From Verrucomicrobiia bacterium (lineage in GTDB: Bacteria > Verrucomicrobiota > Verrucomicrobiia > Verrucomicrobiales > DEV007): a stretch of 47,617 nucleotides of DNA. The position numbers and the translations under genes are program-made. Location: positions 1 through 47,617 of the forward strand of contig JAUICH010000036.1 in NCBI GenBank assembly GCA_030427505.1. Reading direction: 5' to 3'. The notes under the pieces are model-generated. The model did not search any database, had not been told where the DNA came from, and worked only from the letters and a program-made list of their open reading frames with translations. Below are positions 9,872 to 29,354 of this stretch, one piece after another; the stretch's first letter is position 1, and the number at the start of each line of letters is the position of its first letter.

Positions 9872-11185
9872 TCAGCTCAGCTTCCAGTCCCCACGCATGG
9901 GCTGGTCGATCAGGCTGTTGGCTTCGTCGTCGTTGACGAATTTTTCGTTTACCGGATCCCACTCCAGCGGGCGGCGGAGTTGGTAAGCGAGGTTGGTGAG
10001 GTGGCAGATGGTGGCGGTGCGGTGGCCGATTTCTTCGTGGCAGATGCACTTGCCGCGGTCGGCGACGCGTTCCAGGAAGTTCTGCATGTGGCTGACGCGA
10101 TTGGTGCCGCCGGTGTTCTCCAGGTGGATGTCCTGATCCGCGATGGGGTGAGTCTCCCGGAGGTCTTCCGGAACGGTGATGAGCCAGCCGCGATTCACGG
10201 AAACGGAACCTTCCGTGCCGACCCATGTGGTGCCGCCGGGGCCGCCATGGAACATCTCGATCCCGTTTTCGTAGATGAGCTTCAGGCCGCGCTTTTTCTC
10301 CGGGTCCGTGGGCGGAAGGATTTTCACCGGGCCGGTGTCATCGGTGCCTAGTCCCCACTGGGCGATGTCGAAATGGTGCGCGCCAAAGTCGGCCACGCTG
10401 CCGCCGGCATACTCGCGATAGAGACGCCAATGCGGGAAATGGGTATGGACGCCTTTGGGGCAGAGGATTTCGTTGTAGGGCCGGAAAGGGGCGGGTCCAA
10501 GCCACATGTCCCAGTTCGTGTCGTCCGGCACGGTTTCTTCCGGCAGGTCGCAGGGCCGGTTGGGATCGCCCACGCCCACGTGCACGGCCTGGATTTCGCC
10601 CAGCTTGCCATTGCGGACGAGCTCGGCGGCAATGCGGAATTTCCCGTCGTATTCGCTGCGCTGCTGGCTGCCGGTTTGAAAGACCACCTTGTTCGCCTGC
10701 ACGGCATTCACCATGGCGCGGCCTTCGGCGATGGTGCGGGAGATGGGTTTCTCGCAGTAGATGTCTTTCTTCGCCTTGGCGGCGGCAACGGCGATGATGG
10801 CGTGCCAGTGGTCCGGGGTAACGACGAGCACGGCGTCGATGTCGTCCCGGGCGAGCAGTTCGCGGTAGTCGTCATAGCCTTTCACGCCGTCGTAGTCCGG
10901 CTGATTGGTCATCTTGGCGTAAAACTCGTTGGTGATCTTCTTGGCGTTTTCCTTCCGGGAACCGACAACGTCACAGACGGCGACGATCTGAGTCTGGGGA
11001 AACTGCCAGGCCCGCTGCATGTCAGCCAAGCCCTGCTTGCCGACGCCAATGACGCCGATGTTGACGCGGCCGTTCGGACTGGCTGCCTTGGCGTTGAGGG
11101 AAACGGAACCGGCCAGGCCGGAACTGATGAGGGTGGTGGAAACGGCGGCGGCGCCACCGCGCATAAGAAAGTGTCGGCGATCCAT
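9872..11185 (-). CDS. Tat-exported Gfo/Idh/MocA family oxidoreductase
   Basis: 437-aa protein with a short twin-arginine type signal (MDRRHFLMRGG followed by an Ala-rich segment to about residue 35). A Rossmann domain follows: VNIGVIGVGKQGLADM, CDVVGSRKENA, VVTPDHWHAI, and the family lysine in IYCEKPISRT near residue 145. The second half has DFGAHHFDIAQWG, typical of exported PVC members of the family. Clear ATG, no Shine-Dalgarno match. It converges with the SGNH gene; the 82-bp gap contains an imperfect hairpin around 9807-9830. Upstream, across a palindromic element, lies a divergent DUF1080 gene. DUF1080 proteins and this oxidoreductase type often co-occur in PVC genomes, which suggests a shared role in exported keto-sugar metabolism. 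Confidence 0.93.
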   Translation of the reverse strand: MDRRHFLMRGGAAAVSTTLISSGLAGSVSLNAKAASPNGRVNIGVIGVGKQGLADMQRAWQFPQTQIVAVCDVVGSRKENAKKITNEFYAKMTNQPDYDGVKGYDDYRELLARDDIDAVLVVTPDHWHAIIAVAAAKAKKDIYCEKPISRTIAEGRAMVNAVQANKVVFQTGSQQRSEYDGKFRIAAELVRNGKLGEIQAVHVGVGDPNRPCDLPEETVPDDTNWDMWLGPAPFRPYNEILCPKGVHTHFPHWRLYREYAGGSVADFGAHHFDIAQWGLGTDDTGPVKILPPTDPEKKRGLKLIYENGIEMFHGGPGGTTWVGTEGSVSVNRGWLITVPEDLRETHPIADQDIHLENTGGTNRVSHMQNFLERVADRGKCICHEEIGHRTATICHLTNLAYQLRRPLEWDPVNEKFVNDDEANSLIDQPMRGDWKLS

Positions 11186-11341: not shown

Positions 11342-11553
11342 GGCAGCGTGGACAAATTGGAGAACGAACCGGATATGGAGAAAAGGGAAGAGACGTTAGC
11401 GCCGCGAAGCGGCGAAAGCAGGGTCACGCGGCCCATTTTTCGCCTGGCTTCGTTCCCGCTCACTCTATTGGGGGTAGGCCCAATGCCGTTCGCGGCGCCT
11501 TGCCAGACAAAAATGGCCTCGCGCCGGTCCGCCTCCAATTTGTCCACACTGCC
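11342..11553. mobile_element. 212-bp palindromic MITE-like element
   Basis: The gap 11186-11596 has no credible gene. Inside it, 21-bp terminal inverted repeats (GGCAGCGTGGAC... at 11342-11362; reverse complement at 11533-11553) match at 20 of 21 positions. Nested inside are GCCCATTTTT (11431-11440) against AAAAATGGCC (11509-11518, one mismatch) and a perfect hairpin ATTGGG (11467-11472) / CCCAAT (11479-11484). The whole could fold into one long imperfect hairpin. There is no ORF of its own and no clear target-site duplication. A non-autonomous element or a structured RNA are both possible. Confidence 0.6.
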
Positions 11554-11596
11554 TAGACTAACCCTATACCAACCCACAAAAACCCTGACGATAGAT

Positions 11597-12292
11597 ATGA
11601 AACGGATTCTCACCACCTCCATCCTGGCCCTGGCGCTGAGCGCGGCGAGTGCCTGGGCCGAAGACGCTGACGGCGGCTGGAAAAAGCTGTTCGACGGCGT
11701 ATCCCTGGATGGCTGGACGCAACTGAACGGCACCGCCACCTATCGGGTGGAAGACGGCACCATTGTCGGCCAGACCACCGAAGGCAGCCCGAACTCTTTC
11801 CTCTGCACGAACGACGAATACGGCGACTTCGAGCTGGAGTTCGAAGTGAAGGTGGCGGACGAACTGAACTCCGGCGTGCAGCTTCGCTCCAAGCAAAAGG
11901 AGGAAGACACCGGCAAAGGCAAGAACGAAAAGAAAGGCCGGGTTTACGGACCGCAGTGCGAGATAGAAGCCTCTCCCGGTCAGGCGGGCTGGATTTACGG
12001 CGAAGCCACGGAATTCAAATGGCTGTCCGAAGCGCCGAAGCTGGAAGACCCGGCCAAGAACCAGCACTCCCTCATGAAGAATGGCGAATGGAATAAGTTC
12101 CGCGTGGTGGCGAAGGGCAACAACATCAAGACCTGGATCAATGGCCAGCCAGTGGCGGACCTGACGCACGACGGCATCTACGAAATGTGCCCGAAGGGTT
12201 TCATCGGCCTCCAGGTGCACGGCATCAAAGCCGGAACGGGCCCCTACGAAGTGGCGTGGCGCGACATCCGCATCAAGCCGCTGGCGGAGTAA
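11597..12292 (+). CDS. Exported DUF1080 (3-keto-disaccharide hydrolase-like) protein
   Basis: 231-aa secreted protein. The signal peptide MKRILTTSILALALSAASAWA is followed by WKKLFDGVSLDGWTQLNG, the standard opening of DUF1080 domains (FDGxxLxGW). TNDEYGDFELEFEVKV, NSGVQLRS, GPQCEI and GLQVHG follow, typical of this concanavalin-like jellyroll. Members have been linked to hydrolysis of 3-keto-disaccharides, acting with Gfo/Idh/MocA-type dehydrogenases that make keto sugars. That fits the divergent gene at 9872-11185. The ATG at 11597 begins the signal peptide; the frame upstream runs through the palindromic element and is not coding. Two hairpins, one with a U-tract, follow the stop. Confidence 0.92.
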   Translation: MKRILTTSILALALSAASAWAEDADGGWKKLFDGVSLDGWTQLNGTATYRVEDGTIVGQTTEGSPNSFLCTNDEYGDFELEFEVKVADELNSGVQLRSKQKEEDTGKGKNEKKGRVYGPQCEIEASPGQAGWIYGEATEFKWLSEAPKLEDPAKNQHSLMKNGEWNKFRVVAKGNNIKTWINGQPVADLTHDGIYEMCPKGFIGLQVHGIKAGTGPYEVAWRDIRIKPLAE

Positions 12293-12411: not shown

Positions 12412-13443
12412 TCAGCCGACCCGGATGACCACTTTCCCAAAGTGCTGGCCGCTCTCCAGGTACTCGTAGGCAGCGGGCGCGTCTTCGAATTCAAAGGTCC
12501 GGTCGATGACGGGGTGTATCTCGTGCTCTTCCAGGAAGGCATTCATCCGGGAGAAAGCGGCGCGGTGCCCGACGTAGATGCCGTGCAGATTGACGCAGCG
12601 GGTGACCAGGGGAAAGAGGCTGCTGTCCGGCGCGCCCTTCCCCGTGAGAACGCCGATGAGGGCGAGGTTGCCTCCGGCGGCGATGCTGTTCAGCGAACGC
12701 GGGAAGGTGCCGGGCCCGCCGACTTCCAGGATGTGTTCCACGCCCCGCTTTTCCGTTTGGGTCCAGACTTCGCGGTCCCATTCCGGATGGGTGCGGTAGT
12801 TGATGCCGTAGTCCGCGCCCAGTTCGCGGGCCCGGTGCAGCTTTTCATCTTTGGAAGAGGTGATGATGACTTTGGCCGCGGCAGCCACGGCAAACTGTAG
12901 GGCGAAGATGGAGACGCCGCCGGTCCCCAGGGCCAGCACCGTCTCGCCGGGTTTCAGTTGGGCGCGCTCGAACAGGGCGGTCCAGGCGGTAAGCCCGGCG
13001 CAAGGCAAGCAGGCGGCCTCCTCCGCGCTGAGGTGCGGCGGCGCTTCGACAACGCCCACCTCCGGCAGGGTGACGTACTCCGCCAGCATGCCGTCCAGCG
13101 AACCGCCCAGGGCGGCTTTGTGGTACTTCATGTCAAAGGGGCCGTCGTCCCACCCGCAAAAGAAACAGCCCGCCACGCGGTCGCCTTCCTTGAATCGTGA
13201 GACATCTTTCCCCACCGCCTCCACCACCCCGGCGCCGTCAGAAAGAGGGATGATGCTTCCTCCACCCCCGGAGCCGGACTGGCCTTTCCTCATCAGCAGG
13301 TCACGATAGTTCAGAGAGGCGGCCTGGACTTTGATGAGGACTTCGTCAGGACCGGGCTCCGGCCGTTCCATTTCCTGAAGCACGGGGGCGAGACCGGCGT
13401 CTTTATCTTTATCTTCCTGGGGTTCGAGGCGGTAGAGTTTCAT
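12412..13443 (-). CDS. Medium-chain dehydrogenase/quinone oxidoreductase (MDR)
   Basis: 343-aa NAD(P)-dependent oxidoreductase, probably cytoplasmic because it has no signal. The N-terminal GroES-like domain shows NYRDLLMRKG, PLSDGAGVVEAVG and FKEGDRVAG. The Rossmann domain has VLALGTGGVSIFALQFA, ITSSKDEKLHRARELGADYGINY and LALIGVLTG. The C-terminus (FEFEDAPAAYEYLESGQHFGKVVIRV) is typical of zinc-independent quinone reductase-like MDR members. Length is standard for the superfamily. It lies 118 bp upstream of the giant FAD gene on the same strand, which is too far to assert an operon. Substrate unknown, likely an aldehyde, enone or alcohol. Confidence 0.93.
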   Translation of the reverse strand: MKLYRLEPQEDKDKDAGLAPVLQEMERPEPGPDEVLIKVQAASLNYRDLLMRKGQSGSGGGGSIIPLSDGAGVVEAVGKDVSRFKEGDRVAGCFFCGWDDGPFDMKYHKAALGGSLDGMLAEYVTLPEVGVVEAPPHLSAEEAACLPCAGLTAWTALFERAQLKPGETVLALGTGGVSIFALQFAVAAAAKVIITSSKDEKLHRARELGADYGINYRTHPEWDREVWTQTEKRGVEHILEVGGPGTFPRSLNSIAAGGNLALIGVLTGKGAPDSSLFPLVTRCVNLHGIYVGHRAAFSRMNAFLEEHEIHPVIDRTFEFEDAPAAYEYLESGQHFGKVVIRVG

Positions 13444-13561: not shown

Positions 13562-16500
13562 TTACTCCGCGGCCTCCACGATCATCACGCCGTTCATGAT
13601 CTGCCAGTGGCCGGGATACGTGCAGAGAAAGGGGTAACGCCCGGGAGTTTCCGGCGCGTTCACATGAATGACGCCAGCCTCGCTCGGGTTCATCACGGGG
13701 ATGTGGTAGAGCACTTCGGGCAAGTCCGGCACGTAGTCGCGATCCGCGGCGGTGGGGTCGGCGATCATCTTCGTACTGGTGTCGCCGACTTTCTGCAACG
13801 AGCCGGGCGTGACGACCACGAAGTTGTGCGGGATCACGTCCTGATTGACCAGAGACAGAGAAATGCGTTCTCCCGCCTTCACCCGGAATTCGGTAACGTC
13901 AAACCTTAGCCCGGTGATCGCCTGGATGGGTATAGGGCGGCCTTTCTCCACGCCCTTGTTCACGCTGGAGGCGTCAAACTTGGGGATGTCATCCGTGAAG
14001 CGCAGCGCCAGGGTATCGGGCTTTTTCTCTTCCGTGGCCTGGTAGCCGGGAAAGGCAGTGAAGTCCTCACCCAGCCGGAGGATGGTGGGATACAGGTCCG
14101 CGGTGAAGGCGGTGCCGTCCGCGGCTTTCAGCGCGGCATTGAGCTGCATCTGCATAACCGGTATAATGTCCGGAATCTCCACGAACACCGTGCGGCCATC
14201 TTCCAACAGGTGGGCGGAGCGGACCGCCACGGGGTCGTGTCCCACTTCATCCGGGTAGCGCGCGGAAAACTCGGGCGAGCCGTAGCCTTTGGAATACAGG
14301 TAGTTCCACTGCTGACAGAAATAGCTCTTCACGTCCTGGACCGAGGCGGCGTCCAGCGGCTGGGAAAAGGCGATCTTCAGGCCGTTCCGGTGCACCTCGA
14401 ACCCGGTGGGCAGGTAGGCTTTCTTTCCGGTATAGCGCACCCGCTGGAAGCTGCCGTCCTGCTGGGCGTAGTTCCCCCACCCCTGGGAACCGGTCACATA
14501 GAGCTGACCGTCCGCCGGATTGAAACGGGCGCGGTGCGCGCCGGAAAGGAACTCACCCGGCATCGGCACCACGGCGCCCTGGGACCGCTCGCCTTCGGCG
14601 GTGTCCCGCAGAATCATGTAGTAAGAGCAATAGCCAAAGGACAGGCCCAGAAGCTGCCCCTGCAAAGGGCCCCAGCGGTCGCTGGTCACGAAGCACTGGC
14701 CGCCACTGGAGCAATCCACGCCGCGCGGCACATAGACCAGCGGCGGATCGATGTCCTTCTTCGGTGTTTTCCGCATGCCATAGAAGTCGCCCGGTTGCAC
14801 CTCGGCAACGAAGGAAGTGGGGGTCCAGGTGCCTTCCTGCGGCGCGGTGGTGACGATGCCGTCCGGGCTGGCGCCGGTGCCATTGGGATTGCGCAGCCCG
14901 GTGGCAATGACTTCCGCCTTCGTGCCATCGGGCGAGACTTTCCACACGCCCTCGCTGCTGCTGAAGTAGAAGTTCCCGGCGCTATCGTGCTGGAGATCGG
15001 TATTGAAGTCGTGTCCGCCGGCGGAGGATTCGTAGCGGTTGCAGAAGGTCTCGTAGAAATCCGCCTCGCCATCTTCATTGCGGTCGTGGAGGCGGGTGAT
15101 CTGATCTTTCCCTAACACATACACCTCATCGTCCACGATGGCGAGCCCCAGGGCCTGGTGAAGCCCGGTCGCGTAGCGCCGCCAGGTCACGACGTCCAGG
15201 TCTTCGTCGATGCCTTCCACCAGCCAGACATCTCCCATGATGGTGCAGACGGCGGCGGTGCCATCGCTGAAGAAGTCGTGCCCGGACAGGAACATCATGG
15301 AGTGCCAGGGATTCTCCAGCGGCACCGGAATGGTATCCACCACATACGCGCCCTCGCCCGTGCCCAGCTCGCCTTTCAGGGCAATGCTCTCCGGAAAGAG
15401 CGGGGCCGCCGGCGCCACAATGGCTTCCGGCTCCTGCTCAAGGGTGTCCCCGGCAATGGCCTGGCGCACGGCTCCCGCCTTTTCCGGCGCGCCTTTCCAG
15501 GCATAGAGCCGGATGGGGGTGCCCTCTTCATCCGCCTGGAGCCGGAAGGCCAGGTGATCCTCCGGACCCTCGGCCCACTGGGCCGGGCCGCGCAGCGCGA
15601 ACAGCCAGAGCGTGCCGTCCGGGGCGGTCACTTCCTTGCAATCCACGCCGTCTTCTTTCCGGACCACGGTCTTGCCGCCTTTTGGCAGGCGGAAGAATTT
15701 CCCATACGGCTGGCTGGTGCCGGTGGCGTAGAGGGTGCGGGTCAGCACCGCGCCGCTGGCGGTGGGCAGGGTCCACAAGGCGTCCAGCACCTCGGCGTCT
15801 CCCACCCGGTAGTTAAAGATGGCGCGCTTTCCGGCGCGGAAATAGCCGCGATAGGTAAAGTCCTCCGGGTTCAGCTTCCGCTCCCACTTTCCGTCCACGC
15901 TCCAGCCGGGGGCCAGCGCCGCGTCGAACTGCACTGTCCCCTCCATCTCCACGCCCTGGACGATACCCCAGCGGCGGTCGCCGAAGCGGATGAAGCCCCC
16001 GCTCCACGCATCGGACACGCTCAGGGTCAGGGGATCGAAGGCGGCGGAAAACTCCCCCGCCTCTCCCAGGTGGGCGTAGATGCCTTTCACCAGCACCTTG
16101 TCCTGAATCCGCATCACGCCGCCCACCACGGGCCCGACTTCCATCTGGTTCCAACTGTCGTCCACCCAGTCGTTCTGGCTGTAACGGCCCCAGTGGCCGA
16201 ACTTTCCAGCCTCCAGGCCGGGAAAGGGCGAGAGCAGGCGGGGCAGATCGTCTTTCCCCCGGTAGTAGTCCGCTTCCCGGGCGTAGAAATCGTAGAGGCG
16301 GAATTCATTCACCGGGCGATTGGCTAGGGTGTAGCCTTCCCGGCCTTTCGAGGTATCTCCAAAAGACAGCAGCGCCTGGCCGTTTTCGCCTTTGCCCAGG
16401 GGCGCGTCGTCCGTCAGGGCCTTTGGCTGCATCTTGGCGGGCAAGTCCCGCAGCTTCAGCCGCTGGCCGCCGTCCCGCAGTTTTTCCCGCAGCACGCCGT

Positions 16501-18079
16501 AGTCCACCCGCTGCACGGTCAGGTCCGACTCCAGGGCCAGCACGGCGGCGGTGGCGGCGCTTTCACCCAGGAGCATCCACACCGGCTCCATCCGCACGCT
16601 GCCAAAGGCGATGTGCGAGGCGGAAAGACAGCCCGGCACCAGCAGGTTCTCGCACTCGTCCGGCTTCGGCAAAATGGCGCCGTAGGGAATCTCATACGCG
16701 GATTTGCCGACCAGGAAGTTGCCTTCGTTCACCACCTCCCCCTGGCCGTTCACCAGGCGTTGCACGTGGTGGGAATCCACGCCGTAGGAGCCCATGCCGA
16801 TGCTGTCCACCTTCACCGGATGGCCGTAGCAGTCGTGCTCGGTCATCACGTAAAGGCCCACCATGCGGCGCGTTTCGCGGATGTAGAGTTGGTGGCTGAA
16901 GTGGCCGGTGTCTGGGTACTCGTCCTTCGGATAGCCATACTGCTTCATCTCCTCGCGCAGATTTTCCGGCACGCGGGGATCGCTGCTGAGGAACCAGAGC
17001 AGGCCCTTCGTGTAGTCCGCGTGATCTTTCCAGATGGCCTCCCGCGTGGCGTAGTCTCCCTCCGGGTAGTCCCAGTTCGCGCCGATGTAGTCCAGCGAGA
17101 ACGGACCGCCGTCGTTGATGTCGGTCTTCTGGTTCGGCATGGGGTCGATCTTCAGCAGGCCGCCGTCTTTCTGGTGCAGCCCCTTGATCTTTCCGGCGGG
17201 CGTCTGCTGTAACTGCCTGGCCAGCAGTTCGTAACGGCTGGCGTCGTAGCCCTCCGGTTCCGTGATGGGCAGGCGGTGCTCGGGGTCCGTGGTGAGACAG
17301 AGGCGAAAATTGTAGGCCTGAATCTTCGCGTCGCCCGAGCCGTAGGGGCCATAGCCGTCCGCGCTCTGGATGCCGGGCAGCAGGCCGCTGGCGGGATCGC
17401 CGGGCGTTTTGTAGGGATCGACTCCGGGGGCGAAGGTCACCTTGGGTTGCCGGTACTTGGTCATCGCCGGGTCCAGCACGCCGGCCAGTTCTTCGTGGTA
17501 CTGATCGGCGGGCTCGCGGCCCACATGGTAGCTCACGCCCGCCAGGGCCATCAGGTCGCCCTCGTAAGAGGCGTCGATGAACATGGCGCCCTTAAACACC
17601 TCCCCGGATTCGCAACGGATGGAGCGAATGCGGCCGCCCTCTTTCGTCACGCCGTCCTTCAGGTCCAGCCGCTGCCCGCGAAAGAGGCTTTCGCCGTCGA
17701 GCAGCCCCTCTTCTTTCAGCCAGGTTTCGAAAACGTCCGTGGCCACCTTCGGCTCGAACTTCCAGGCCAGGTCCTTTCCGTAGCGCTGACCCACCTTCTC
17801 GAAGAAAGTCCGCGACAGCCCGCCAATGGCTTCCTCCACCCCTTTGTCCGTCTGGCCCAGGCCGCCGGTCACCATGCCCCCAAGTTGCGGCTTCGGCGCC
17901 ACGATGGCGACGCGGACGCCGAGTCGCTTGGCCTGGATGCCGGCGATGAGGGCCGCCGGGGTGTCTCCGTAGATGACCACATCGGCCTCGTGCGTGGCGG
18001 GTTCGGCCCGGAGTGGGACGGCGCTGGAGCCCAGCAGGCAGGAAACCGCCAGGAACAGGGGGAATAGGAGGGTTTTCAT
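13562..18079 (-). CDS. Secreted FAD oxidoreductase-propeller-azurin fusion
   Basis: 1505-aa secreted protein. Signal peptide about 1-27. FAD_oxidored-type flavoprotein about 30-530, opening ADVVIYGDTPAALIAG with FIDASYEGDL further on. A region about 600-890 resembles the linker seen in PVC heme proteins (DUF6797-like: VGGVMRIQDKVLVKGIYAHLG). A sorbosone/glucose-dehydrogenase-like propeller spans about 910-1230 (GTAAVCTIMGDVWLVEG, GHDFNTDLQHDSAGNFYFSS), with a further beta-rich part to about 1335. The C-terminus is an azurin/auracyanin-like cupredoxin with complete type-1 copper ligands: His1418 (IPHNFVV), Cys1486 and His1491 (CTYPGH), Met1495. Cys-x4-His-x3-Met equals azurin spacing. The ATG at 18079 starts the signal; upstream frame to 18262 overlaps the divergent promoter. 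Flavin substrate oxidation with copper as electron exit is inferred. Confidence 0.9.
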   Translation of the reverse strand: MKTLLFPLFLAVSCLLGSSAVPLRAEPATHEADVVIYGDTPAALIAGIQAKRLGVRVAIVAPKPQLGGMVTGGLGQTDKGVEEAIGGLSRTFFEKVGQRYGKDLAWKFEPKVATDVFETWLKEEGLLDGESLFRGQRLDLKDGVTKEGGRIRSIRCESGEVFKGAMFIDASYEGDLMALAGVSYHVGREPADQYHEELAGVLDPAMTKYRQPKVTFAPGVDPYKTPGDPASGLLPGIQSADGYGPYGSGDAKIQAYNFRLCLTTDPEHRLPITEPEGYDASRYELLARQLQQTPAGKIKGLHQKDGGLLKIDPMPNQKTDINDGGPFSLDYIGANWDYPEGDYATREAIWKDHADYTKGLLWFLSSDPRVPENLREEMKQYGYPKDEYPDTGHFSHQLYIRETRRMVGLYVMTEHDCYGHPVKVDSIGMGSYGVDSHHVQRLVNGQGEVVNEGNFLVGKSAYEIPYGAILPKPDECENLLVPGCLSASHIAFGSVRMEPVWMLLGESAATAAVLALESDLTVQRVDYGVLREKLRDGGQRLKLRDLPAKMQPKALTDDAPLGKGENGQALLSFGDTSKGREGYTLANRPVNEFRLYDFYAREADYYRGKDDLPRLLSPFPGLEAGKFGHWGRYSQNDWVDDSWNQMEVGPVVGGVMRIQDKVLVKGIYAHLGEAGEFSAAFDPLTLSVSDAWSGGFIRFGDRRWGIVQGVEMEGTVQFDAALAPGWSVDGKWERKLNPEDFTYRGYFRAGKRAIFNYRVGDAEVLDALWTLPTASGAVLTRTLYATGTSQPYGKFFRLPKGGKTVVRKEDGVDCKEVTAPDGTLWLFALRGPAQWAEGPEDHLAFRLQADEEGTPIRLYAWKGAPEKAGAVRQAIAGDTLEQEPEAIVAPAAPLFPESIALKGELGTGEGAYVVDTIPVPLENPWHSMMFLSGHDFFSDGTAAVCTIMGDVWLVEGIDEDLDVVTWRRYATGLHQALGLAIVDDEVYVLGKDQITRLHDRNEDGEADFYETFCNRYESSAGGHDFNTDLQHDSAGNFYFSSSEGVWKVSPDGTKAEVIATGLRNPNGTGASPDGIVTTAPQEGTWTPTSFVAEVQPGDFYGMRKTPKKDIDPPLVYVPRGVDCSSGGQCFVTSDRWGPLQGQLLGLSFGYCSYYMILRDTAEGERSQGAVVPMPGEFLSGAHRARFNPADGQLYVTGSQGWGNYAQQDGSFQRVRYTGKKAYLPTGFEVHRNGLKIAFSQPLDAASVQDVKSYFCQQWNYLYSKGYGSPEFSARYPDEVGHDPVAVRSAHLLEDGRTVFVEIPDIIPVMQMQLNAALKAADGTAFTADLYPTILRLGEDFTAFPGYQATEEKKPDTLALRFTDDIPKFDASSVNKGVEKGRPIPIQAITGLRFDVTEFRVKAGERISLSLVNQDVIPHNFVVVTPGSLQKVGDTSTKMIADPTAADRDYVPDLPEVLYHIPVMNPSEAGVIHVNAPETPGRYPFLCTYPGHWQIMNGVMIVEAAE

Positions 18080-18206: not shown

Positions 18207-19751
18207 ATGAAAACCCTTCCCCTCGTTGTCCTGACGGCCGCGATGCTCGGCGCTTCAGTCACGCCTTCCGCCCTGGCCGCGGAACCTCAGCCCGGCCTGC
18301 GCCTGGAACAGGCGGGCACGGCGCGCGCTTACTTCACCTGGCACGGCCAGCCGCTGCTCTCCTTCGGCGGCATTTCGGACTTCCTCTTTTACGCCGGTCA
18401 GGACGCCTACGACTACAAACTCTGGGCGGACTGGGCGGCGGCGCACGGCATGAACCACGTGCGCGCCTACCCGCCCCTGAGCTGGAAACACATCGAGGCC
18501 TTCATCACCGAAAACGGCGGTTCGGTGGACAACGCCCTCTTTCCCTACGAAGAAACGGAGCCCGGCAGCCGCCAGTTCGACCTGACGAAGTTCAATGAAG
18601 CCTACTGGACCCGCTTTCGCGAGCAGTGCGAATACCTGGAGCAGAAGGGCATCATCATCCACCTCCTGATGTGGAACGGCTGGCAGCTCCGCGCCCCGGA
18701 CAGCAAGGGCGGCAACGCCAACGAGATCGACTGGCTGGGTCACTTCTTCAATCCGGACCACAACGTCAACGCCTTCACCGATTCCCTGGGCGGCGATTTG
18801 AAAAACCGCTACCGCATTTACGAATCCGTGGCGGACGGAAACGCGGAACTGGCCGCCGCCACCACCGCCTGGTTCGAGAAGCTGGCCGAGGTCACCTCCG
18901 GCCTGGGCAATGTCTACTTCGATCTGGTCCACGAAATGGCGGAGCACCAGGGCGACTGGGGAAAGGCGCAGCAATGGATCGAGCACATGGCCAAGGCATC
19001 AGAATCCCGCTGGGATGCCCTGAACCCGGACGATCCCTTCCTCATCGGCATGGACACCGGCGGCCTGAACGATGCCCAGCGCGACTGGGTCTTCACCCGG
19101 CCGTACTTTGACCTCCTCATCTATGGCAAAGCCCACACCGTGCCCAACGCGGTGAACTGGCGGAAGAAATACCAGAAGCCCTACATCCCCCAGGAGAGCT
19201 GGGACGACGACGGCAAAAAATACCGCCTCATCTACGCGGCGGACCGCGTCCCCATCCGCAAATACATGTGGAAATTCATGATGGCAAAGTGCCAGCAGAT
19301 GGACCTCTACATGAAGCCGCTGGGCCGGACGGGAGACGAAAAACTCACCCGGCATCCGCACAACTACGACCCCAACGGCCAGAACCCGTTCGAGGACGAC
19401 GCCGTGCAACTGCGGGCGTTCTGGGACCGCCTGAGCGACTACCCGAATCTGTGGTTTGGCGGGAAGATGGATGGAAAGATCCCGCCCCATCACTACCTCC
19501 TTTCCTCCCCTAGCGAAGCCGTCTTCTACTTCTCCTCCGCCACCGGAGAAGAGAAAGTCAGCTTTCCGCCGCGGCAGATCAAAGTCTCGTCCCTGGCCTT
19601 GAAAGACGGGGAATACACCGCTACGGCTTTCAGTCCCGAGAAAGGGCCCCTGGTCAAAGCCATCGTCAAGGTGTCCGGAGGCCAGTTGAACATGAATCTG
19701 CCAGCCTTCGTGGACGACCTGGCGGTCCATGTTCAGGCCATTGGAAATTAG
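18207..19751 (+). CDS. Secreted clan GH-A-like glycoside hydrolase
   Basis: 514-aa exported enzyme. The signal peptide ends near SALAAEPQ. A TIM-barrel-like domain follows (about 30-410): YFTWHGQPLLSFGG, then HGMNHVRAYPPLSWK. Glu243 in YFDLVHEMAEHQGD sits at the usual acid/base position after strand 4. Glu330 in KPYIPQESWDD sits at the usual nucleophile position on strand 7. The C-terminal 85 aa form a beta-sandwich like the collagen-binding-type domain found behind DUF4038/GH140-like barrels. Exact GH family unresolved. ATG at 18207 is directly before the signal; the frame to 17973 shadows the divergent gene. The SGNH gene follows after 33 bp, suggesting co-transcription through to the cytochrome-bearing dehydrogenase. 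Confidence 0.85.
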   Translation: MKTLPLVVLTAAMLGASVTPSALAAEPQPGLRLEQAGTARAYFTWHGQPLLSFGGISDFLFYAGQDAYDYKLWADWAAAHGMNHVRAYPPLSWKHIEAFITENGGSVDNALFPYEETEPGSRQFDLTKFNEAYWTRFREQCEYLEQKGIIIHLLMWNGWQLRAPDSKGGNANEIDWLGHFFNPDHNVNAFTDSLGGDLKNRYRIYESVADGNAELAAATTAWFEKLAEVTSGLGNVYFDLVHEMAEHQGDWGKAQQWIEHMAKASESRWDALNPDDPFLIGMDTGGLNDAQRDWVFTRPYFDLLIYGKAHTVPNAVNWRKKYQKPYIPQESWDDDGKKYRLIYAADRVPIRKYMWKFMMAKCQQMDLYMKPLGRTGDEKLTRHPHNYDPNGQNPFEDDAVQLRAFWDRLSDYPNLWFGGKMDGKIPPHHYLLSSPSEAVFYFSSATGEEKVSFPPRQIKVSSLALKDGEYTATAFSPEKGPLVKAIVKVSGGQLNMNLPAFVDDLAVHVQAIGN

Positions 19752-20892: not shown

Positions 20893-23800
20893 ATGTCCAT
20901 GTCTCCTTTCCCACAAATCCGGCTGAAAAATCTCTCTCCGCTACTGGCATTGTCAGGGCTGATGGCTCTGAGTTTTGGGCTCCCAAGGATCGCCAGCGCT
21001 CAGTCCGTATCCGCCTCCGTGTCCGATCCTTCGCCAGCGGCGGAGCAGGCCACCTTTACGCTTCACGAAGACTTCGAAGCCAATCTCTTCGCGGACGAGT
21101 CAATGGGCATCGCCAATCCCATCGCCATCCAGTGGGACGAACACGGGCGGCTCTGGACGCTCTGCACGCTGGCCTACGCGCAGTTGGAGCCGGGCCAGGT
21201 GCCGGATGACAAGCTCTACATCCTTTCGGATGAAGACGGCGACGGCAAGGCGGACCGCTCCGCCGTGTTCGCCAGCGGCCTGAACATGCCCACCGGCTTC
21301 GCCCTGGGCGATGGCGTGGCCTGGGGGGCGAAAGGCACGGTGGTCTATCTCGCGGAAGGCCCGGACCTGGTGCTCCTCTTAGACAACGACGGCGACGGCC
21401 AGTCGGACGAACGGCGCGTCCTGCTCACCGGTTTCGGCACGGGCGACACGCACCAGGACATCAGCAACTTCACCTTCGGACCCAGCGGGCGGCTCTACTT
21501 TTCCCAGGGCCTGCACACCCTGTCCCGCGTGGAAACGCCCTGGGGCATCGTCCGCGGAGACACGGCGGGCTTCTGGCGTTTCGATCCCTGGCGCCTGAAG
21601 CTGGAGCCCTTCTGCTTCCCCTCCCTGGCTTCCCAGAACCCCTGCGGCATCGCTTTCGACCGCTGGGGCGCGCTCTTTGTGAAGAGCAACAACCTGGAAG
21701 TCGGCTACGTCACCCCCGGCCTGGTCCCCCCCGATCACCCTAACAATCTCATGGCGCTGGCGAACATCGGCGTTACGCCCGGCAAAAGCATGGCGGGCGA
21801 GGTCGTGGAGTCTGCCCACCTGCCGGACTGGCTGCAACAGCACATCCTGATCGCGGGCTATTACTCCCACCGCGTCACCGCCTTCCCCCTGCTCGAAGAC
21901 GGCGCTGGCTTTCAGAAAGTAGAGCCCGTGCAAATCCTCGCCGCCACGCACGAAAGCTTCCGCCCCGTGGACATCCGCACCGGACCGGACGGCGCCATTT
22001 ACGTGGCGGACTGGTTCAACCCCATCATCGGACACTACCAGGCCTCCCTGCGGCACCCGGACCGGGATAAGGAGCACGGCCGCATCTGGCGCATCACCGC
22101 CAAGGGCCGCGCCCTGAATCCGGCGCCGGATCTTTCCGGGGGGAACTTGATCGAACTTCTGGCGTCGCCGGACGGCTGGACCCGTTCCCAGGCGAAGCGC
22201 CTCCTCGCTCACCGCATGAGGAACGGCGAGGCTCTCGTGGAGTCGGTCCGAAAATGGATCGCGGCCCTGGACGAAAACGAGGAAGCGAACGCGCTGCCTC
22301 TGTTTGAAGCGGTGTCTCTGTTAGGATTGAAGATCGATACGAAGTCTCTGAACAAACTGATCGGTTGCCCTCAACCGCTGGCCCGGGCCTATGCCGGACG
22401 GATCATCGGCATGAACCCGGACGCCATCGACCGTCCCCTGGACAAGCTGGCCTACCTGGTGCGGGACGAACATCCCCGCGTGCGGCTGGAAGCCGTGATC
22501 GCCTGTTCGTATTTCCAGGACCCCGAAGCGCTGAAGATCGCCCTCCGCGCCCTGGACTCGCCGATGGACAAATACATCGACTACTCCCTGAGCCAGGCGG
22601 TGTATGCCCTCGCGGACATCTGGGTGCCCGCCATGCAGTCAGGCACGCTGGAACTGACCATTCCCAGCCACCTCGCCTACACCCTGGAAACCTACGGCGG
22701 CGCGGCGGCCGCTGAAATGGCCCGGAAGACCTTAAAGAAACCGGATCTGCCCGAGGAAACCCGCGACAGCCTGGGGGTGGTCCTGGCCAAAGTGGGTGAC
22801 GCGGACGACCTGCGCGGTTTGCTGGTGGATTCCTCTCACCAAAACACCACGATCCTGCGCGCCCTGAGCGAGACCTGGCAAACCCGCAAGCTGAAGCCCA
22901 AAGGCCCGCTACCCCCTGAACTGACCAAGCTGCTCGACGGGGACAATACGGAGGTCCGCGCCGCCGCCATCGAGCTGGCGGGACTCTGGGACTTGAAACC
23001 GCTCCAGGACCGCATCCAAAAACTGGCCCTGGAAGGCGCCCCCACGCCCGCCGAACGCACCGCCGCCCTGCTTAGCTTTGCCCGCCTCGCTGGCAAGGAC
23101 GCCATCCCCCCGCTGCAAACCGTGGGCCGCGAAGCCGCGGACCCCGCCATCCAGAGCGCGGCGGTGGAGGCCGTCGCCCTGATCGACCTGCCAGCAGCCG
23201 CATCCCTCGCGGCGGAGGGCCTCGCCAAGGTGGAGTCGCCGGAAGCCGCTTCTCAGCTCCTGCTTCCCTTCCTCAGCCGGAAAGATGGGTATTCCGCGTT
23301 GGTGCCCGCTCTGAAAAAGGCGGATCTTTCCGCTGAAGCCGCTCAACACATCCACGCCGCCATTACCAGCGCGGGCCGGGCGAACGTCAGCCTGACGGAA
23401 GTGTTGAACGTGGCCATGGGCTTGCAGAACAGCGTTCAGGAATACAGCGCCGAGTTCGTCGCCACGCTCGCGGAGGAAGTCCGCCAGTCGGGCGACGCCG
23501 CGGCGGGGAAGGAAATCTTCAACCTGCCCCAGGTCACCTGCGTGGCCTGTCACCAGGTGGGCGGCGTGGGCGGCATCCTCGGCCCGCCGCTGGACGCCGT
23601 CGGCGCGGGTCTGCCCCTGGACCTCATCATCGAGTCCGTCCTCTGGCCGCAGCGCCAGTTGAAGGAAGGCTACTTTACCGTCAGCATCACGACCGAGGAT
23701 GGGAGGGTCTTTTCCGGCTATGAAGACCACGTGGCGGACGGCGCCCTCTTCCTGCGCGACAGCGCCACCATGCAGGTGAAGCCCATCCCGAAAGCCGAGA

Positions 23801-23913
23801 TCGCGGACCGCCAGGAAGTCGGCTCCCTCATGCCCTCCGGCCTGACCGCCAGCCTCAGCCGCGAACAACTGCGCGACCTCATCCGCTACCTTTGGGAACG
23901 GAAAGGAAACTGA
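20893..23913 (+). CDS. PVC-type membrane-bound dehydrogenase with HEAT repeats and heme c
   Basis: 1006-aa exported protein. After a signal segment (about 15-38) comes a sorbosone-dehydrogenase-like propeller (about 55-420: IAIQWDEHGRLWTL, DEDGDGKADRSAVFA, GPDGAIYVADWFNPIIGHYQ), as in the TIGR02604-type N-terminus. HEAT-like alpha repeats span about 420-860. A C-terminal mono-heme domain (TIGR02603-type) carries CVACH at 883-887 and the likely axial Met near SLMPSGL. Its role is probably sugar oxidation outside the cytoplasm with electron transfer through heme; the propeller cofactor is unknown. The start has MSM alternatives 6 bp apart. It pairs with the SGNH-fold gene upstream. Confidence 0.92.
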   Translation: MSMSPFPQIRLKNLSPLLALSGLMALSFGLPRIASAQSVSASVSDPSPAAEQATFTLHEDFEANLFADESMGIANPIAIQWDEHGRLWTLCTLAYAQLEPGQVPDDKLYILSDEDGDGKADRSAVFASGLNMPTGFALGDGVAWGAKGTVVYLAEGPDLVLLLDNDGDGQSDERRVLLTGFGTGDTHQDISNFTFGPSGRLYFSQGLHTLSRVETPWGIVRGDTAGFWRFDPWRLKLEPFCFPSLASQNPCGIAFDRWGALFVKSNNLEVGYVTPGLVPPDHPNNLMALANIGVTPGKSMAGEVVESAHLPDWLQQHILIAGYYSHRVTAFPLLEDGAGFQKVEPVQILAATHESFRPVDIRTGPDGAIYVADWFNPIIGHYQASLRHPDRDKEHGRIWRITAKGRALNPAPDLSGGNLIELLASPDGWTRSQAKRLLAHRMRNGEALVESVRKWIAALDENEEANALPLFEAVSLLGLKIDTKSLNKLIGCPQPLARAYAGRIIGMNPDAIDRPLDKLAYLVRDEHPRVRLEAVIACSYFQDPEALKIALRALDSPMDKYIDYSLSQAVYALADIWVPAMQSGTLELTIPSHLAYTLETYGGAAAAEMARKTLKKPDLPEETRDSLGVVLAKVGDADDLRGLLVDSSHQNTTILRALSETWQTRKLKPKGPLPPELTKLLDGDNTEVRAAAIELAGLWDLKPLQDRIQKLALEGAPTPAERTAALLSFARLAGKDAIPPLQTVGREAADPAIQSAAVEAVALIDLPAAASLAAEGLAKVESPEAASQLLLPFLSRKDGYSALVPALKKADLSAEAAQHIHAAITSAGRANVSLTEVLNVAMGLQNSVQEYSAEFVATLAEEVRQSGDAAAGKEIFNLPQVTCVACHQVGGVGGILGPPLDAVGAGLPLDLIIESVLWPQRQLKEGYFTVSITTEDGRVFSGYEDHVADGALFLRDSATMQVKPIPKAEIADRQEVGSLMPSGLTASLSREQLRDLIRYLWERKGN

Positions 23914-24644: not shown

Positions 24645-26144
24645 ATGAAGCTTCTTTACCTCCCCTTTCTTTTCCTAACCTTTTTATTAAGCGGAAAGGT
24701 TGCCGCCCAGATTCCCGCCGAGCCTCTCCAGATCGGTCACGAGCCCCAGTTCCTTCACAACCTCTGGGTGGTGGACAACCACTGGGCCATCAAATACAAA
24801 AAAGAAGCCGTGCGGCGCGTCTTTCACCCGGCCCAAAAACATCCCGCCAACCCGGTTCTGAGAGACGGAAACCCCAGCTATGGCTGGGCGGTTTACGATG
24901 AGGAGGCCGGTCTGTTCCGGCTCTACTACCAGAAAAATCTCCTCTTCAATCCTGAGGCTCCCCAGGAAAAGGAAGGCCGCAAGTACCGGACGGAAATCGC
25001 CTGCGCGGAGTCCGCGGACGGCATCCACTGGAAGGTGCCGCATCTCAATCTCTATCCTGACAAAAGCCCCGAACCCAACAACATCGTCATCGAAGTGCCC
25101 GGCCACCCCACTCTGGAAGCCTCCGCGCCGGTGCTGCTGGACGTGCCGGAGAAGGATCGCCATGGATTCCGCTACCTCATGATGTACCGCGCCAAAGGCG
25201 CCGGAGGCGGCGACGCGAATGGCATCCGCCTCGTGGGATCGCGCGACGGCATTCATTGGGATCAGGCCAGCGACACCCAGATCGTGCACCTGCACAGCGA
25301 TCATCATAACTCCATCAGCTATGATCCGGTGAAGGACGACTACGTCCTCTATTGCCGGGCGAAAGACGTTTACCGCGCCCGGGGCAAGGAAATGATCGAC
25401 ACCGGCGCGTCCCGGCGCATCGCCACGATGCGCAGTAAGGAACTGTGGACGAACTGGATGGAGCATGGCCGCCCCCAGACGATCCTCATCCCCGACGAGA
25501 CCGATAACGAAACGAACTACAACTTCTTCTACGGCATGCCCACCCGCTATTTCGCGGGCGTTTTCTGGGGGTTCCTGGAGCCCTTCCGGATGAACGACTA
25601 CATCCACACCGAGCTGGTTTTCAGCCGGGACGGCGTGAACTTCCTCCGCCTGCCCGGACACCCCAAGCTCATCGAATACGGAGAGGACGGCGCCTGGGAC
25701 GATACCATGATCTTCGCCAGCCCCGGCTGGGTGGAGAAAGGCGATCAATGGTATCTCTACTACACCGGCTGGGACGGCCCCCACGGCGGCACGGACCGCT
25801 CCGGCGCCTTCGGCCTGGCCACGGTCCGGAAAGAAGGCTTCGTTTCCCTGCGCGGCCCCAGGAACGGCGGCGTGGTCTGCACCCGCACGATGATCTGGCC
25901 CGGCGGCGATCTCGTCCTCAACGCGGATGCCCACGAGGGCGAGTTGACTGTCCGCGTCAGCAACCGCCTGCGCCAGCCAGTGGAAGGCTTCAACCACGGC
26001 GACGGGGAAGCCTTCACCGGAGACGCCGTGCGTCACATCTACCACTGGGGCGGGAAATCCCTCAATGAGCTAAAAGGCCAGGAGATCCGCCTGGAGTTCT
26101 ATCTCCGCGACGCGGACCTCTACACCTTTCTGGCTGGAGAGTGA
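24645..26144 (+). CDS. Secreted five-bladed beta-propeller glycosidase-like protein
   Basis: 499-aa exported protein. The signal peptide MKLLYLPFLFLTFLLSG ends near KVAAQ. Repeated blades follow the GH32/GH43/GH68 style: SYGWAVYDEEAGLFRLYYQ, IACAESADGIHWKVP, IRLVGSRDGIHWDQ, DDYVLYCRAKD, LVFSRDGVNFLRLP and DQWYLYYTGWDGPHGG. The SxDGxxW pattern is characteristic of five-bladed glycosidase propellers common in PVC genomes. Catalytic acids cannot be assigned with confidence. A C-terminal beta-sandwich ends LRDADLYTFLAGE. ATG at 24645 opens the signal; the frame upstream to 24543 lies within repeat copy 2. Its stop overlaps the GTG of the next gene, so the two are translationally coupled. Confidence 0.85.
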   Translation: MKLLYLPFLFLTFLLSGKVAAQIPAEPLQIGHEPQFLHNLWVVDNHWAIKYKKEAVRRVFHPAQKHPANPVLRDGNPSYGWAVYDEEAGLFRLYYQKNLLFNPEAPQEKEGRKYRTEIACAESADGIHWKVPHLNLYPDKSPEPNNIVIEVPGHPTLEASAPVLLDVPEKDRHGFRYLMMYRAKGAGGGDANGIRLVGSRDGIHWDQASDTQIVHLHSDHHNSISYDPVKDDYVLYCRAKDVYRARGKEMIDTGASRRIATMRSKELWTNWMEHGRPQTILIPDETDNETNYNFFYGMPTRYFAGVFWGFLEPFRMNDYIHTELVFSRDGVNFLRLPGHPKLIEYGEDGAWDDTMIFASPGWVEKGDQWYLYYTGWDGPHGGTDRSGAFGLATVRKEGFVSLRGPRNGGVVCTRTMIWPGGDLVLNADAHEGELTVRVSNRLRQPVEGFNHGDGEAFTGDAVRHIYHWGGKSLNELKGQEIRLEFYLRDADLYTFLAGE

Positions 26145-27481
26145 TTTCAGGCACGAACCCAGCGCCCGCCCCCCTTGTCATCGGGCCGATCCGCTTTACT
26201 CTTTCGGGCATCACCTCCGCTTTCCTCCAGATCTATCGCCTCGCGGTCCTGGTCGCCATTGTCTGGCTGGTCCGGGAACATCACGTACGCCTGCGCGTCC
26301 AGGGGGACCGTCCCATCACGGCGCAGGAGGTGCGGGCCTTCCTGCCGGACACGCATAAGCTGGTGCCGGACGGCGGCCCGCGCGCCGGTCTCTTCGTGCT
26401 GAATGCCGCCGGAGACACCATCGGCTACGCCGCCCGCACCATGCCGCAATGCCGTGACGTCATCGGCTATTCGGGCCCCACGGACGGGCTCATCGTTTTC
26501 GGCCCGGACGAAAAAGTCGTGGGCGTCGCCATCCGCTCCAGCTACGACACGCCCAGCCACGTCGAGGACGTGAAGTTCGACTACCTCTTCATGGAAAACT
26601 GGAACGGGAAGACCTGGGAAGAGATCGCCGCCATTGAGGACCTGAACGCGGCGGGCATCTATGGCGTGTCCGGCGCCACCCGCACCAGCGAAGCCCTGGG
26701 CGAGAGCATCTCCGTTCGCCTCGCTTCCGGCGATGCCTCAGCTCCGGCGGCGGCACGGGCGGGCTGGCGTTTCGGCTGGAAAGACGCCGGGCTCGTCCTC
26801 GTGGTGGCGGGCGGCCTGCTTATGGCTTTCGTGAAACGCCGCGCGGTGCAGCGCCTGCGGCCCTGGTATTCCGTCGCGGTTTTCCTCTACCTCGGCCTGT
26901 TAACCGGTGACCTGCTCGCGGAGTCCCTACTGGTGGGCTGGGCGGAGTCCGGCATTCCCTGGCGCTATTCTCCCGGCGTGGTGCTCCTCGCGGCGGCGGC
27001 CTTCCTCGTGCCCTTGGGCACGCGGCAGCCGCTCTACTGCCAGTACATCTGTCCCCACGGACACGCCCAACGCTGGCTGATGAAGGTCCTGCCCGCCCGC
27101 TGGATGCTGAAGCTGCCAAAGGACGTGAAGTGGCCCGCTCAAGCCATTCCCCTCATGCTCCTGGTGGTAGTTCTGTTAGTCACTTTTCTGGACCTGCCGC
27201 TGGACCTGGCGGGCATCGAACCCTTCGACGCCTACGTCATCCGTTCCGCCGGCGTGGCCACCATCGCCGTGGCGGCGGTGGGCCTTTTCGCCGCGCTTTT
27301 CATTCCCATGGCCTATTGTAAATACGGCTGCCCCACGGGGTTGCTGCTGGACTTCGTCCGCCGCCGCACCGGAGAAACGCGCCCCGGCCTCCGGGACCTC
27401 GTGGCCTTGCTGTTCCTCGGCGCGGCTTTCGTTTTTTACCGTTATTACGACCTCATTCATGGCTGGATTGTCCAGGCTTAG
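26141..27481 (+). CDS. FMN-binding, Fe-S membrane protein (NosR/RnfG-NapH-like)
   Basis: 446-aa polytopic membrane protein with GTG start overlapping the upstream stop (GTGA). Helix 1 is at about 28-45. The periplasmic FMN-binding domain (about 50-195) ends in GVSGATRTS, the S/T-G-A-T-x-T flavinylation motif, with Thr182 the probable covalent FMN site attached by ApbE. About six helices follow, with two CxxxCP clusters: Cys300/Cys304 (CQYICPHG) and Cys393/Cys397 (CKYGCPTG), as in NosR and NapH. The C-terminal ferredoxin domain of full NosR is absent. It probably moves electrons across the membrane to or from extracytoplasmic flavin enzymes. No nos or rnf genes are nearby. Its 3' end overlaps the next gene. 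Confidence 0.88.
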   Translation: MISGTNPAPAPLVIGPIRFTLSGITSAFLQIYRLAVLVAIVWLVREHHVRLRVQGDRPITAQEVRAFLPDTHKLVPDGGPRAGLFVLNAAGDTIGYAARTMPQCRDVIGYSGPTDGLIVFGPDEKVVGVAIRSSYDTPSHVEDVKFDYLFMENWNGKTWEEIAAIEDLNAAGIYGVSGATRTSEALGESISVRLASGDASAPAAARAGWRFGWKDAGLVLVVAGGLLMAFVKRRAVQRLRPWYSVAVFLYLGLLTGDLLAESLLVGWAESGIPWRYSPGVVLLAAAAFLVPLGTRQPLYCQYICPHGHAQRWLMKVLPARWMLKLPKDVKWPAQAIPLMLLVVVLLVTFLDLPLDLAGIEPFDAYVIRSAGVATIAVAAVGLFAALFIPMAYCKYGCPTGLLLDFVRRRTGETRPGLRDLVALLFLGAAFVFYRYYDLIHGWIVQA

Positions 27482-27938: not shown

Positions 27939-29354
27939 ATGACGCCCCCCAACATCCTCTGGCTGTGCACGGACCAGCAGCGTTTCGACACCATCGGCGC
28001 GTTGGGAAATCCCCTGGTCCGCACGCCAAATCTGGACCGCCTCGTGGCGCAAGGGGTCAGCTTCACGAATGCCTTTTGCCAGAGCCCGGTCTGCACGCCC
28101 AGCCGGGCCTCTTTTCTCACCGGCCGCTACGCCCGCACCACGCGCTGCCGCCAGAACGGGCAGCAGATTCCCGCGGACGAGGTGCTGGTCTCGCGCCTCT
28201 TCGCGGACGCGGGGTACCGCTGCGGCCTGGCGGGAAAGCTGCACCTTTCCTCCTGCGCCAATGGCCGGGTGGAACAGCGCATCGATGATGGCTACGATGT
28301 GTTCCACTGGTCGCACCACCCTCAACCGGATTGGGCGGAGAACGCCTACTCTCAGTGGCTTAGCTCCCAGGGCACTTCGTGGGAGGAGCTTTACAACGGA
28401 CCCACCACCGGCTTCGTAAAGGAGGGTGTGCCCGCCGAATTTCACCAGACCACCTGGTGCGCGGAGATGACGATCGACTTCCTGCGCGAAAACGCCGGGC
28501 GACCGTGGTTTTTCAGCTTCAATTGCTTCGACCCCCACCACCCCTTCGACCCGCCGAAGGACTACCTGGACCATTACGACCCGGACCAGATGCCCCTGCC
28601 CAAACGCCGCGAAGGCGAGCTGGCGGAGAAAACTTCCTTCCAGCGTCTCGACGCGGAATGGGCGCACAACAGCCCCGGCGAATTTCACACCAGCGCCATG
28701 ACGGACCGCGACCGGCGCGAAGTGACCGCCGCCTACTACGCCATGTGCGAACTCATCGACACCCAGGTGGGCCGCATTCTCGATGCGCTGGAGGCATCCG
28801 GCCAGGCGGACAACACGCTGGTTATTTTCATGTCCGACCATGGCGAGATGCTGGGAGACCACGGCCTCTATTTCAAAGGCCCCCACTTCTACGACGAAGC
28901 GCTGCGCGTCCCCCTCATCCTGCGTTGGCCGGGTCATTTCAAGGAAGGCCACCAGGTCACCGGCCTGGTGGAATTGACCGACCTCGCCCCCACACTGCTG
29001 GAGGCCTCGGGGCTGGCCGTGCCGGAGCGCATGCAGGGCCGCTCCCTCCTGCCCCATCTTACGGGAGAAGCGGACCCAGCCCATCATCGCGACTTCGTTT
29101 ACTGCGAATACTACAACGCCTGGACCCACCACGACGCCTACGGCACCATGGTCCGCACGCCCACGGAAAAGATCGTCGTCTATCACGGCACGGATCAGGG
29201 CGAACTCTATGATCTGGAGAACGACCCGGATGAGTTCGAGAATCTCTGGGACCGTCCGGAGGAACTGCCGCGCAAAGCCCGGCTGCTGAAGCAGTGCTTC
29301 GACGCCAGCGTCCTGTCCATGGATCCCATGCCCGAACGGCTCGGACCCTTCTAA
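27939..29354 (+). CDS. Sulfatase without signal peptide (CTPSR type)
   Basis: 471-aa sulfatase, probably cytoplasmic because it starts MTPPNILWLCTDQQR with no signal. The formylglycine site is Cys52 in VCTPSRASFLTGRY, the canonical CxPxR. Asp12 and the SDHGEMLGDHGL segment supply metal ligands; the usual first DD pair is D-Q here. The C-terminal half has CEYYNAWTHHDAY and LYDLENDPDEFENLWD, the typical sulfatase tail. The family hydrolyses sulfate esters after Cys is converted to formylglycine; no FGE or anSME maturase gene is in the window. A Gfo/Idh/MocA gene without signal follows after 24 bp, so both may act on imported sulfated sugars. Confidence 0.93.
   Translation: MTPPNILWLCTDQQRFDTIGALGNPLVRTPNLDRLVAQGVSFTNAFCQSPVCTPSRASFLTGRYARTTRCRQNGQQIPADEVLVSRLFADAGYRCGLAGKLHLSSCANGRVEQRIDDGYDVFHWSHHPQPDWAENAYSQWLSSQGTSWEELYNGPTTGFVKEGVPAEFHQTTWCAEMTIDFLRENAGRPWFFSFNCFDPHHPFDPPKDYLDHYDPDQMPLPKRREGELAEKTSFQRLDAEWAHNSPGEFHTSAMTDRDRREVTAAYYAMCELIDTQVGRILDALEASGQADNTLVIFMSDHGEMLGDHGLYFKGPHFYDEALRVPLILRWPGHFKEGHQVTGLVELTDLAPTLLEASGLAVPERMQGRSLLPHLTGEADPAHHRDFVYCEYYNAWTHHDAYGTMVRTPTEKIVVYHGTDQGELYDLENDPDEFENLWDRPEELPRKARLLKQCFDASVLSMDPMPERLGPF

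Follow-up and report, generated by a model that had tools for sequence, protein, structure and literature searches.

How does a flavin domain come to share one chain with a beta-propeller and a predicted blue-copper site, and do these parts form a single electron path? The question is raised by a gene on contig C1 of genome G000, a verrucomicrobial assembly of 6.4 Mb in 56 contigs (96.49% complete); the entire contig, 47,617 bases long, is the stretch of DNA analysed here and is referred to as the window. A first-pass annotation had read the gene product as a self-contained enzyme that oxidises its substrate at the flavin and exports the electrons via copper.

The answer matters beyond this locus. 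Many redox proteins of this bacterial group contain the functionally uncharacterised parts DUF6797 and DUF7133, and the comparison presented here points to a platform with an exchangeable enzyme front and an equally exchangeable electron-carrier end, offering testable hypotheses for both families that start from one chain. The window protein should hold a flavin as well as a blue copper, the latter being traceable by its colour. In the open-licence literature (i.e. outside subscription journals and preprints), no paper was found for 'DUF6797', nor for cupredoxin, ThuA and Verrucomicrobi* together, and a search by title and abstract start returned nothing on the combination of FAD_oxidored, DUF6797, propeller and cupredoxin. 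Copper, ThuA and FAD do not occur in the accessible part of PMC11495043.

Four modules in one reading frame

The gene occupies positions 13562–18079, as first annotated, and is read from the minus strand, with its ATG at 18079 and its stop codon ending at 13562. The stop-to-stop frame around it comprises 1574 uninterrupted codons, and the single 1505-aa ORF with its Pfam matches bears out the view that flavin domain, DUF6797, propeller and cupredoxin reside on one polypeptide:

13562..18079, minus strand: whole gene, FAD_oxidored, DUF6797, propeller and cupredoxin, 1505 aa
18005..18079, minus strand: probable signal peptide, residues 1–25, read by eye
16478..17983, minus strand: FAD_oxidored (PF12831), residues 33–534, from Pfam and a fold model
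16364..16444, minus strand: module junction, residues 546–572, from the homology limits on both sides; GC3 0.85
15782..16045, minus strand: DUF6797 (PF20601), residues 679–766, from Pfam
14045..15469, minus strand: DUF7133-like beta-propeller and the region after it, residues 871–1345, from profile comparison
13574..13915, minus strand: cupredoxin (PF00127), residues 1389–1502, ligands H1418, C1486, H1491 and M1495, from Pfam and alignment

The flavin domain does stand in front, and its Pfam match is far over cut-off (337.1 bits against 27, E 2.5e-100, profile positions 1–416 of 416); DUF6797 (63 bits against 24.9, E 4.9e-17) and Copper-bind PF00127 (29.6 bits against 21.2, E 9.2e-7) follow. 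The protein is probably secreted.

Of 161 columns with at least 80% conservation in 16 relatives, the flavin domain keeps 147 and departs at 14. One departure, A43, lies in the nucleotide loop, where 14 of the 16 relatives have G, while a later GG pair is kept. In a structure model of residues 26–800, which fails from about residue 553 on, 235 residues of the domain reach a pLDDT of at least 90 and another 189 lie at 70–90. Fold matches of this model were flavoproteins akin to fumarate reductase, thioredoxin reductase, Thi4 and GidA and mainly covered the nucleotide-binding fold; all 1000 listed chains had Z >= 8, with many flavoproteins at nearly equal Z of 15–17 over ~150–310 aligned residues, so that the search indicates a fold class only and no substrate. 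The modelled fold is flavoprotein-like; FAD binding and turnover of a substrate are putative. A profile of the FAD domain run against the PDB recovered only the shared nucleotide-binding part and the Golvesin region of the xanthan lyase 6f2p.

At the other end of the chain, the ligands had been numbered correctly as His1418, Cys1486, His1491 and Met1495, and the translation has the azurin-like spacing C-x4-H-x3-M. In an alignment of the window protein with 39 relatives, all 40 rows retain H1418, C1486 and H1491, and 39 retain M1495. Ligand set and profile argue for a type-1 copper domain. Its best solved sequence matches are auracyanin A, a blue copper domain protein and auracyanin B, followed by azurins, and it scores 25 bits with the azurin equivalog TIGR02695, below the cut-off of 105.1. 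It has the ligand set and spacing of auracyanin and azurin; these are free carriers, whereas the cupredoxin here is the C-terminal part of a 1505-aa chain. A structure model of residues 560–1505, computed from the window protein and one relative, had a mean pLDDT of 31.1.

The propeller was harder to place. Its earlier label, 'sorbosone-dehydrogenase-like', found no footing, as the window protein gave no GSDH match at E<=1. DUF7133 scores 14.6 bits on it, below the cut-off of 27, and recurs at E<=1 in all 18 aligned propellers of the same kind and at E<=0.1 in 11 of 11 propellers of a wider set, six of which are common to both sets; the profile evidence suggests a propeller of the DUF7133 type. 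GSDH (PF07995) appears in one of the 11 propellers of the wider set, from the same genome, at 18.4 bits, below the cut-off of 25. Against the PDB, a profile of the 18-propeller kind (A5) yielded three chance-like rows at E<=10. The wider profile (A6) matched NHL-type propellers and, weakly, Drp35 (E 0.038) and the glucose/sorbosone dehydrogenase 2g8s (E 0.24), and a related same-genome propeller, on contig C40, searched alone, matched designed NHL-type propellers. PqqE over cut-off was absent from the genome, yet this is a weak test since none of 14 control genomes passed it either; PQQ could possibly be acquired by uptake.

The join and its distribution

We refer to DUF6797, propeller and cupredoxin (residues ~560–1505) as the chassis. 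Searches with the full protein returned matches in 14 of 74 genomes of the family (E<=1e-200), 18 of 386 of the order, nine of 384 of the class (1e-185) and four of 387 of the phylum, and among the matches listed in each set, both halves were covered only in the protein's own genome. These counts include that genome, come from overlapping sets that are mostly samples, and refer to the best 2–7 candidate places per genome. A query spanning the join (residues 441–780) matched 58 of 386 order genomes at E<=1e-30 and four of 305 class genomes at 1e-38; among the matches listed, only the protein's own crosses the join. Of 72,556 plasmid records, 17 matched this query and none over 80% of its length, the best five of the 17 all lying on the flavin side. 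Among the genomes searched, only the window protein shows a flavin front.

The two homologies meet within a narrow stretch: flavin-side matches reach to about residue 561 at most, those of the chassis start from about residue 553, and chassis homology sets in within ~30–40 residues of the flavin domain. A natural split pair was also considered and rejected, as none of 27 chassis loci (~5–16 kb, some cut by contig ends) contained a gene with the FAD domain and none of 13 FAD loci a chassis gene.

Such isolation, with the joined form in no other genome searched and FAD genes beside chassis genes in 0 of 27 loci, is also what would favour a chimeric assembly in which two genes were falsely joined. 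However, the join is in frame and lies at a module border, the window is free of N, GC3 stays at 0.82–0.86 across all modules, and the codon usage of the two halves correlates at 0.908 (0.857–0.931 against four neighbouring genes). The gene is, moreover, 13.5 and 29.5 kb away from the contig ends. We regard an assembly error, the caveat attached to the first reading, as very unlikely, and take the fusion to be real.

The flavin half can be compared with its paralogues. The genome has at least nine FAD_oxidored matches, and five of the six paralogues scanned end in Golvesin_C; these oxidoreductases share the flavin domain that forms the N-terminal third of the window protein, but there the chassis follows in place of Golvesin_C, which Pfam did not find in the window protein. 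In our reading of these sequences, loss would have removed the Golvesin end from the flavin half and the leader from the chassis. FAD_oxidored occurs in other company as well: L091:1052-4132 (G028:C48) encodes the domain together with a sulfatase in one 1027-aa frame, and L097:4843-9411 (G033:C457) is a 1523-aa frame with Golvesin_C at the end and ~870 residues ahead of FAD_oxidored that have no Pfam match at E<=0.001. In a collection of viral contigs (viral_contigs), the FAD half was found at 15 loci; the chassis had no match there.

Exchangeable fronts and carrier ends

Unlike the fusion, the chassis is widespread. Matches at E<=1e-30 occur in 49 of 57 genomes (the protein's own included), and the top-listed matches in other genomes span residues ~573–1503 or 890–1503, i.e. 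propeller and cupredoxin together; such matches are common in the family, the order and the class, other families of the class included. A scan of the genome_contigs collection added one relative, spanning residues 590–1501.

After removal of rows with identical ends, 44 relatives with propeller and cupredoxin were compared for what precedes the chassis. Assigned by BLAST against reference fronts, ThuA stands in front in 10, ThuA with LamG in one, a xylose-isomerase-like TIM barrel in five, a TIM barrel with LamG in 12, another front in three and none in 13, with no case of FAD. The frame start lies outside the sequence in 16 of the 44, and 14 of these, judged by frame length, miss at most 298 codons, which could not accommodate a flavin domain of ~500 residues; L017 (counted as front-less) and L038 (counted as other) are cut by contig ends, where a front could be hidden. 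Ten of these relatives were also scanned with Pfam: ThuA exceeded its cut-off in two of them and fell short of it in L043, AP_endonuc_2 exceeded its cut-off in two and narrowly missed it in L054, and Laminin_G_3 passed in three. The ThuA- or TIM-barrel-fronted proteins L042, L043, L044, L052 and L053 are 44–49% identical to the window protein over residues 560–1505 and have the same copper ligands, but carry another N-terminal enzyme, and no flavin domain was seen in them, where the window protein has FAD_oxidored.

On a midpoint-rooted tree of propeller and cupredoxin with 45 rows, built by a quick method with SH-aLRT as the only support measure, front types cluster: they require 13 changes against a shuffled mean of 26.5, and none of 200 shuffles gave as few as 13. 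The ThuA+LamG protein L044 groups with the TIM-barrel proteins and not with the remaining ThuA proteins. Next to the ThuA and front-less groups, the window protein forms a branch of its own that is not included in any well-supported smaller set. Judged by these alignments, DUF6797, propeller and cupredoxin are a conserved unit that stands alone or behind different fronts.

The carrier end appears to be exchangeable too. The window protein's paralogues L008 and L009, encoded in its own genome, combine DUF6797 and a propeller with a terminal cytochrome c, with four CxxCH motifs and one, respectively, and further loci carry either carrier in split or related forms:

L126:4030-6962 (G000:C40), adjacent same-strand frames: cupredoxin with sub-threshold DUF6797 (428 aa), then propeller (551 aa)
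L127:3589-6878 (G000:C4), adjacent same-strand frames: cytochrome c, PA14 and sub-threshold DUF6797 (582 aa), then propeller (572 aa)
L130:5889-8807 (G000:C22): DUF7133-HEAT with terminal cupredoxin, 973 aa, Copper-bind over cut-off
L131:5119-8376 (G000:C19): GDSL-fronted DUF7133-HEAT with terminal cupredoxin, 1086 aa, Cupredoxin_1 just below cut-off

Two further propellers, on C56 and C15, adjoin cytochrome c frames without a DUF6797 match. In L130 and L131, a cupredoxin takes the place of the CxxCH domain of PVC-type proteins, and that of L131 is 36% identical to the window cupredoxin. With heme- and copper-ended forms side by side in one genome, the earlier remark that copper replaces heme is right but general: L008 and L009 do carry cytochrome c at that position, whereas the suggestion that the replacement is unusual does not fit a propeller-cupredoxin pair that is common in family, order and class. 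PVC-type CxxCH proteins (TIGR02604/TIGR02603, DUF7133) share with the window protein a propeller and a C-terminal one-electron carrier, but they end in heme, while the window protein has copper and a flavin front. Its score with TIGR02604 is 16.6 bits, below the cut-off of 122.2, and its translation contains no CxxCH heme motif.

Neighbouring genes and candidate electron paths

The genes around the fusion are as follows:

9872..11185, minus strand: GFO/IDH/MocA oxidoreductase, best NCBIfam model BT_2158 glycoside 3-dehydrogenase
11348..12292, plus strand: 3-keto-disaccharide hydrolase (PF06439), E 1.6e-45
12412..13443, minus strand: zinc-type alcohol dehydrogenase (ADH_N, ADH_zinc_N), directly downstream
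18207..19751, plus strand: apiosidase-like protein, divergent neighbour, 20.8 bits, below the Pfam cut-off of 26.5
20893..23913, plus strand: PVC-type heme protein, DUF7133, HEAT and CxxCH domain

The alcohol dehydrogenase, 3-keto-disaccharide hydrolase and GFO/IDH genes all lie within 4 kb downstream, the last scoring 149.9 bits with the BT_2158 model, far below its cut-off of 750. These neighbours and the TIM-barrel fronts of the relatives both point to 3-keto-glycoside chemistry, to which the ThuA fronts presumably belong as well. For one TIM-barrel protein with the annotation 'sugar phosphate isomerase', cleavage of a 3-keto-glycoside through beta-elimination is described (PMC10628242), and levoglucosan is handled by a four-enzyme 3-keto route (PMC7676230).

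The reading that we favour, tentatively and with slightly less than even confidence, is that of a multi-module carbohydrate oxidoreductase in which the propeller would feed the copper and the flavin domain, as a swapped-in module, would work on the same sugar. It builds on the module order, the kept copper ligands, the modular relatives, the exchange of heme and copper, and the neighbouring genes. The protein would be secreted or periplasmic, with DUF6797, propeller and cupredoxin as its constant redox unit. The propeller would oxidise a sugar, or present it for oxidation, and the type-1 copper would accept electrons singly and pass them to another carrier—the role that cytochrome c would have in the heme-ended paralogues. 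Ahead of this unit, the N-terminal position would act as a socket for different catalytic modules, i.e. ThuA, a TIM barrel or, here, FAD_oxidored, and the flavin module would most likely further oxidise or reduce the same sugar, probably within a 3-keto-glycoside route. With three COX1 matches over cut-off, the genome would also supply a terminal oxidase. Several findings count against this proposal of location, substrate class and electron path: a sequence search with profile A5 gave no solved relative of the propellers at E<=10 beyond chance-like rows, GSDH is below cut-off and limited to one of 11 propellers, no PqqE passes its cut-off in the genome (a weak test), the model of residues 560–1505 has a mean pLDDT of 31.1, FAD and chassis genes are not neighbours in 27 + 13 loci, the dehydrogenase is far below the BT_2158 cut-off, and the place in the tree is unsupported.

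The same chain can be read differently. In the enzyme originally envisaged, FAD would oxidise the substrate and the electrons would travel intramolecularly to the type-1 copper, leaving the propeller as a scaffold or substrate-binding part. The well-kept and well-modelled flavin domain, the kept copper ligands and the presence of both domains on one chain are in its favour; but in 44 relatives, two of them cut by contig ends, cupredoxin accompanies the propeller and no flavin domain was seen, so the copper site also occurs apart from the flavin and the cupredoxin needs no flavin donor there. This speaks against self-contained flavin-to-copper export, and we consider that path rather unlikely. 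A flavo-cupro-enzyme in which flavin and copper would form a direct electron-transfer pair, set on a platform with exchangeable front and carrier end, is likewise doubtful in our estimate. In the flavocytochromes cellobiose dehydrogenase and p-cresol methylhydroxylase, a flavin enzyme is paired with a one-electron heme carrier. The window protein resembles them in joining a flavin enzyme to a putatively coupled one-electron carrier, but it differs in having copper instead of heme and an extra propeller in between. Equally improbable, in our view, is that the modules work independently on one polymer: the flavin enzyme would pass its electrons to oxygen or a different carrier, and the propeller-copper unit would be no more than a tethered neighbour. 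FAD_oxidored is indeed also tethered to non-redox parts, namely Golvesin_C in the own-genome paralogues and the sulfatase of L091; nothing speaks directly against independence, yet coupling is plausible given that the chain also contains a one-electron carrier.

Elsewhere in the window, positions 26141–27481 encode a protein with FMN_bind and Fer4_5 that is NapH/MauN-like below cut-off. A sulfatase-type gene was found by Pfam at 27939–29354, and two more, below the NCBIfam cut-off, lie at 40287–41804 and 45285–47048.
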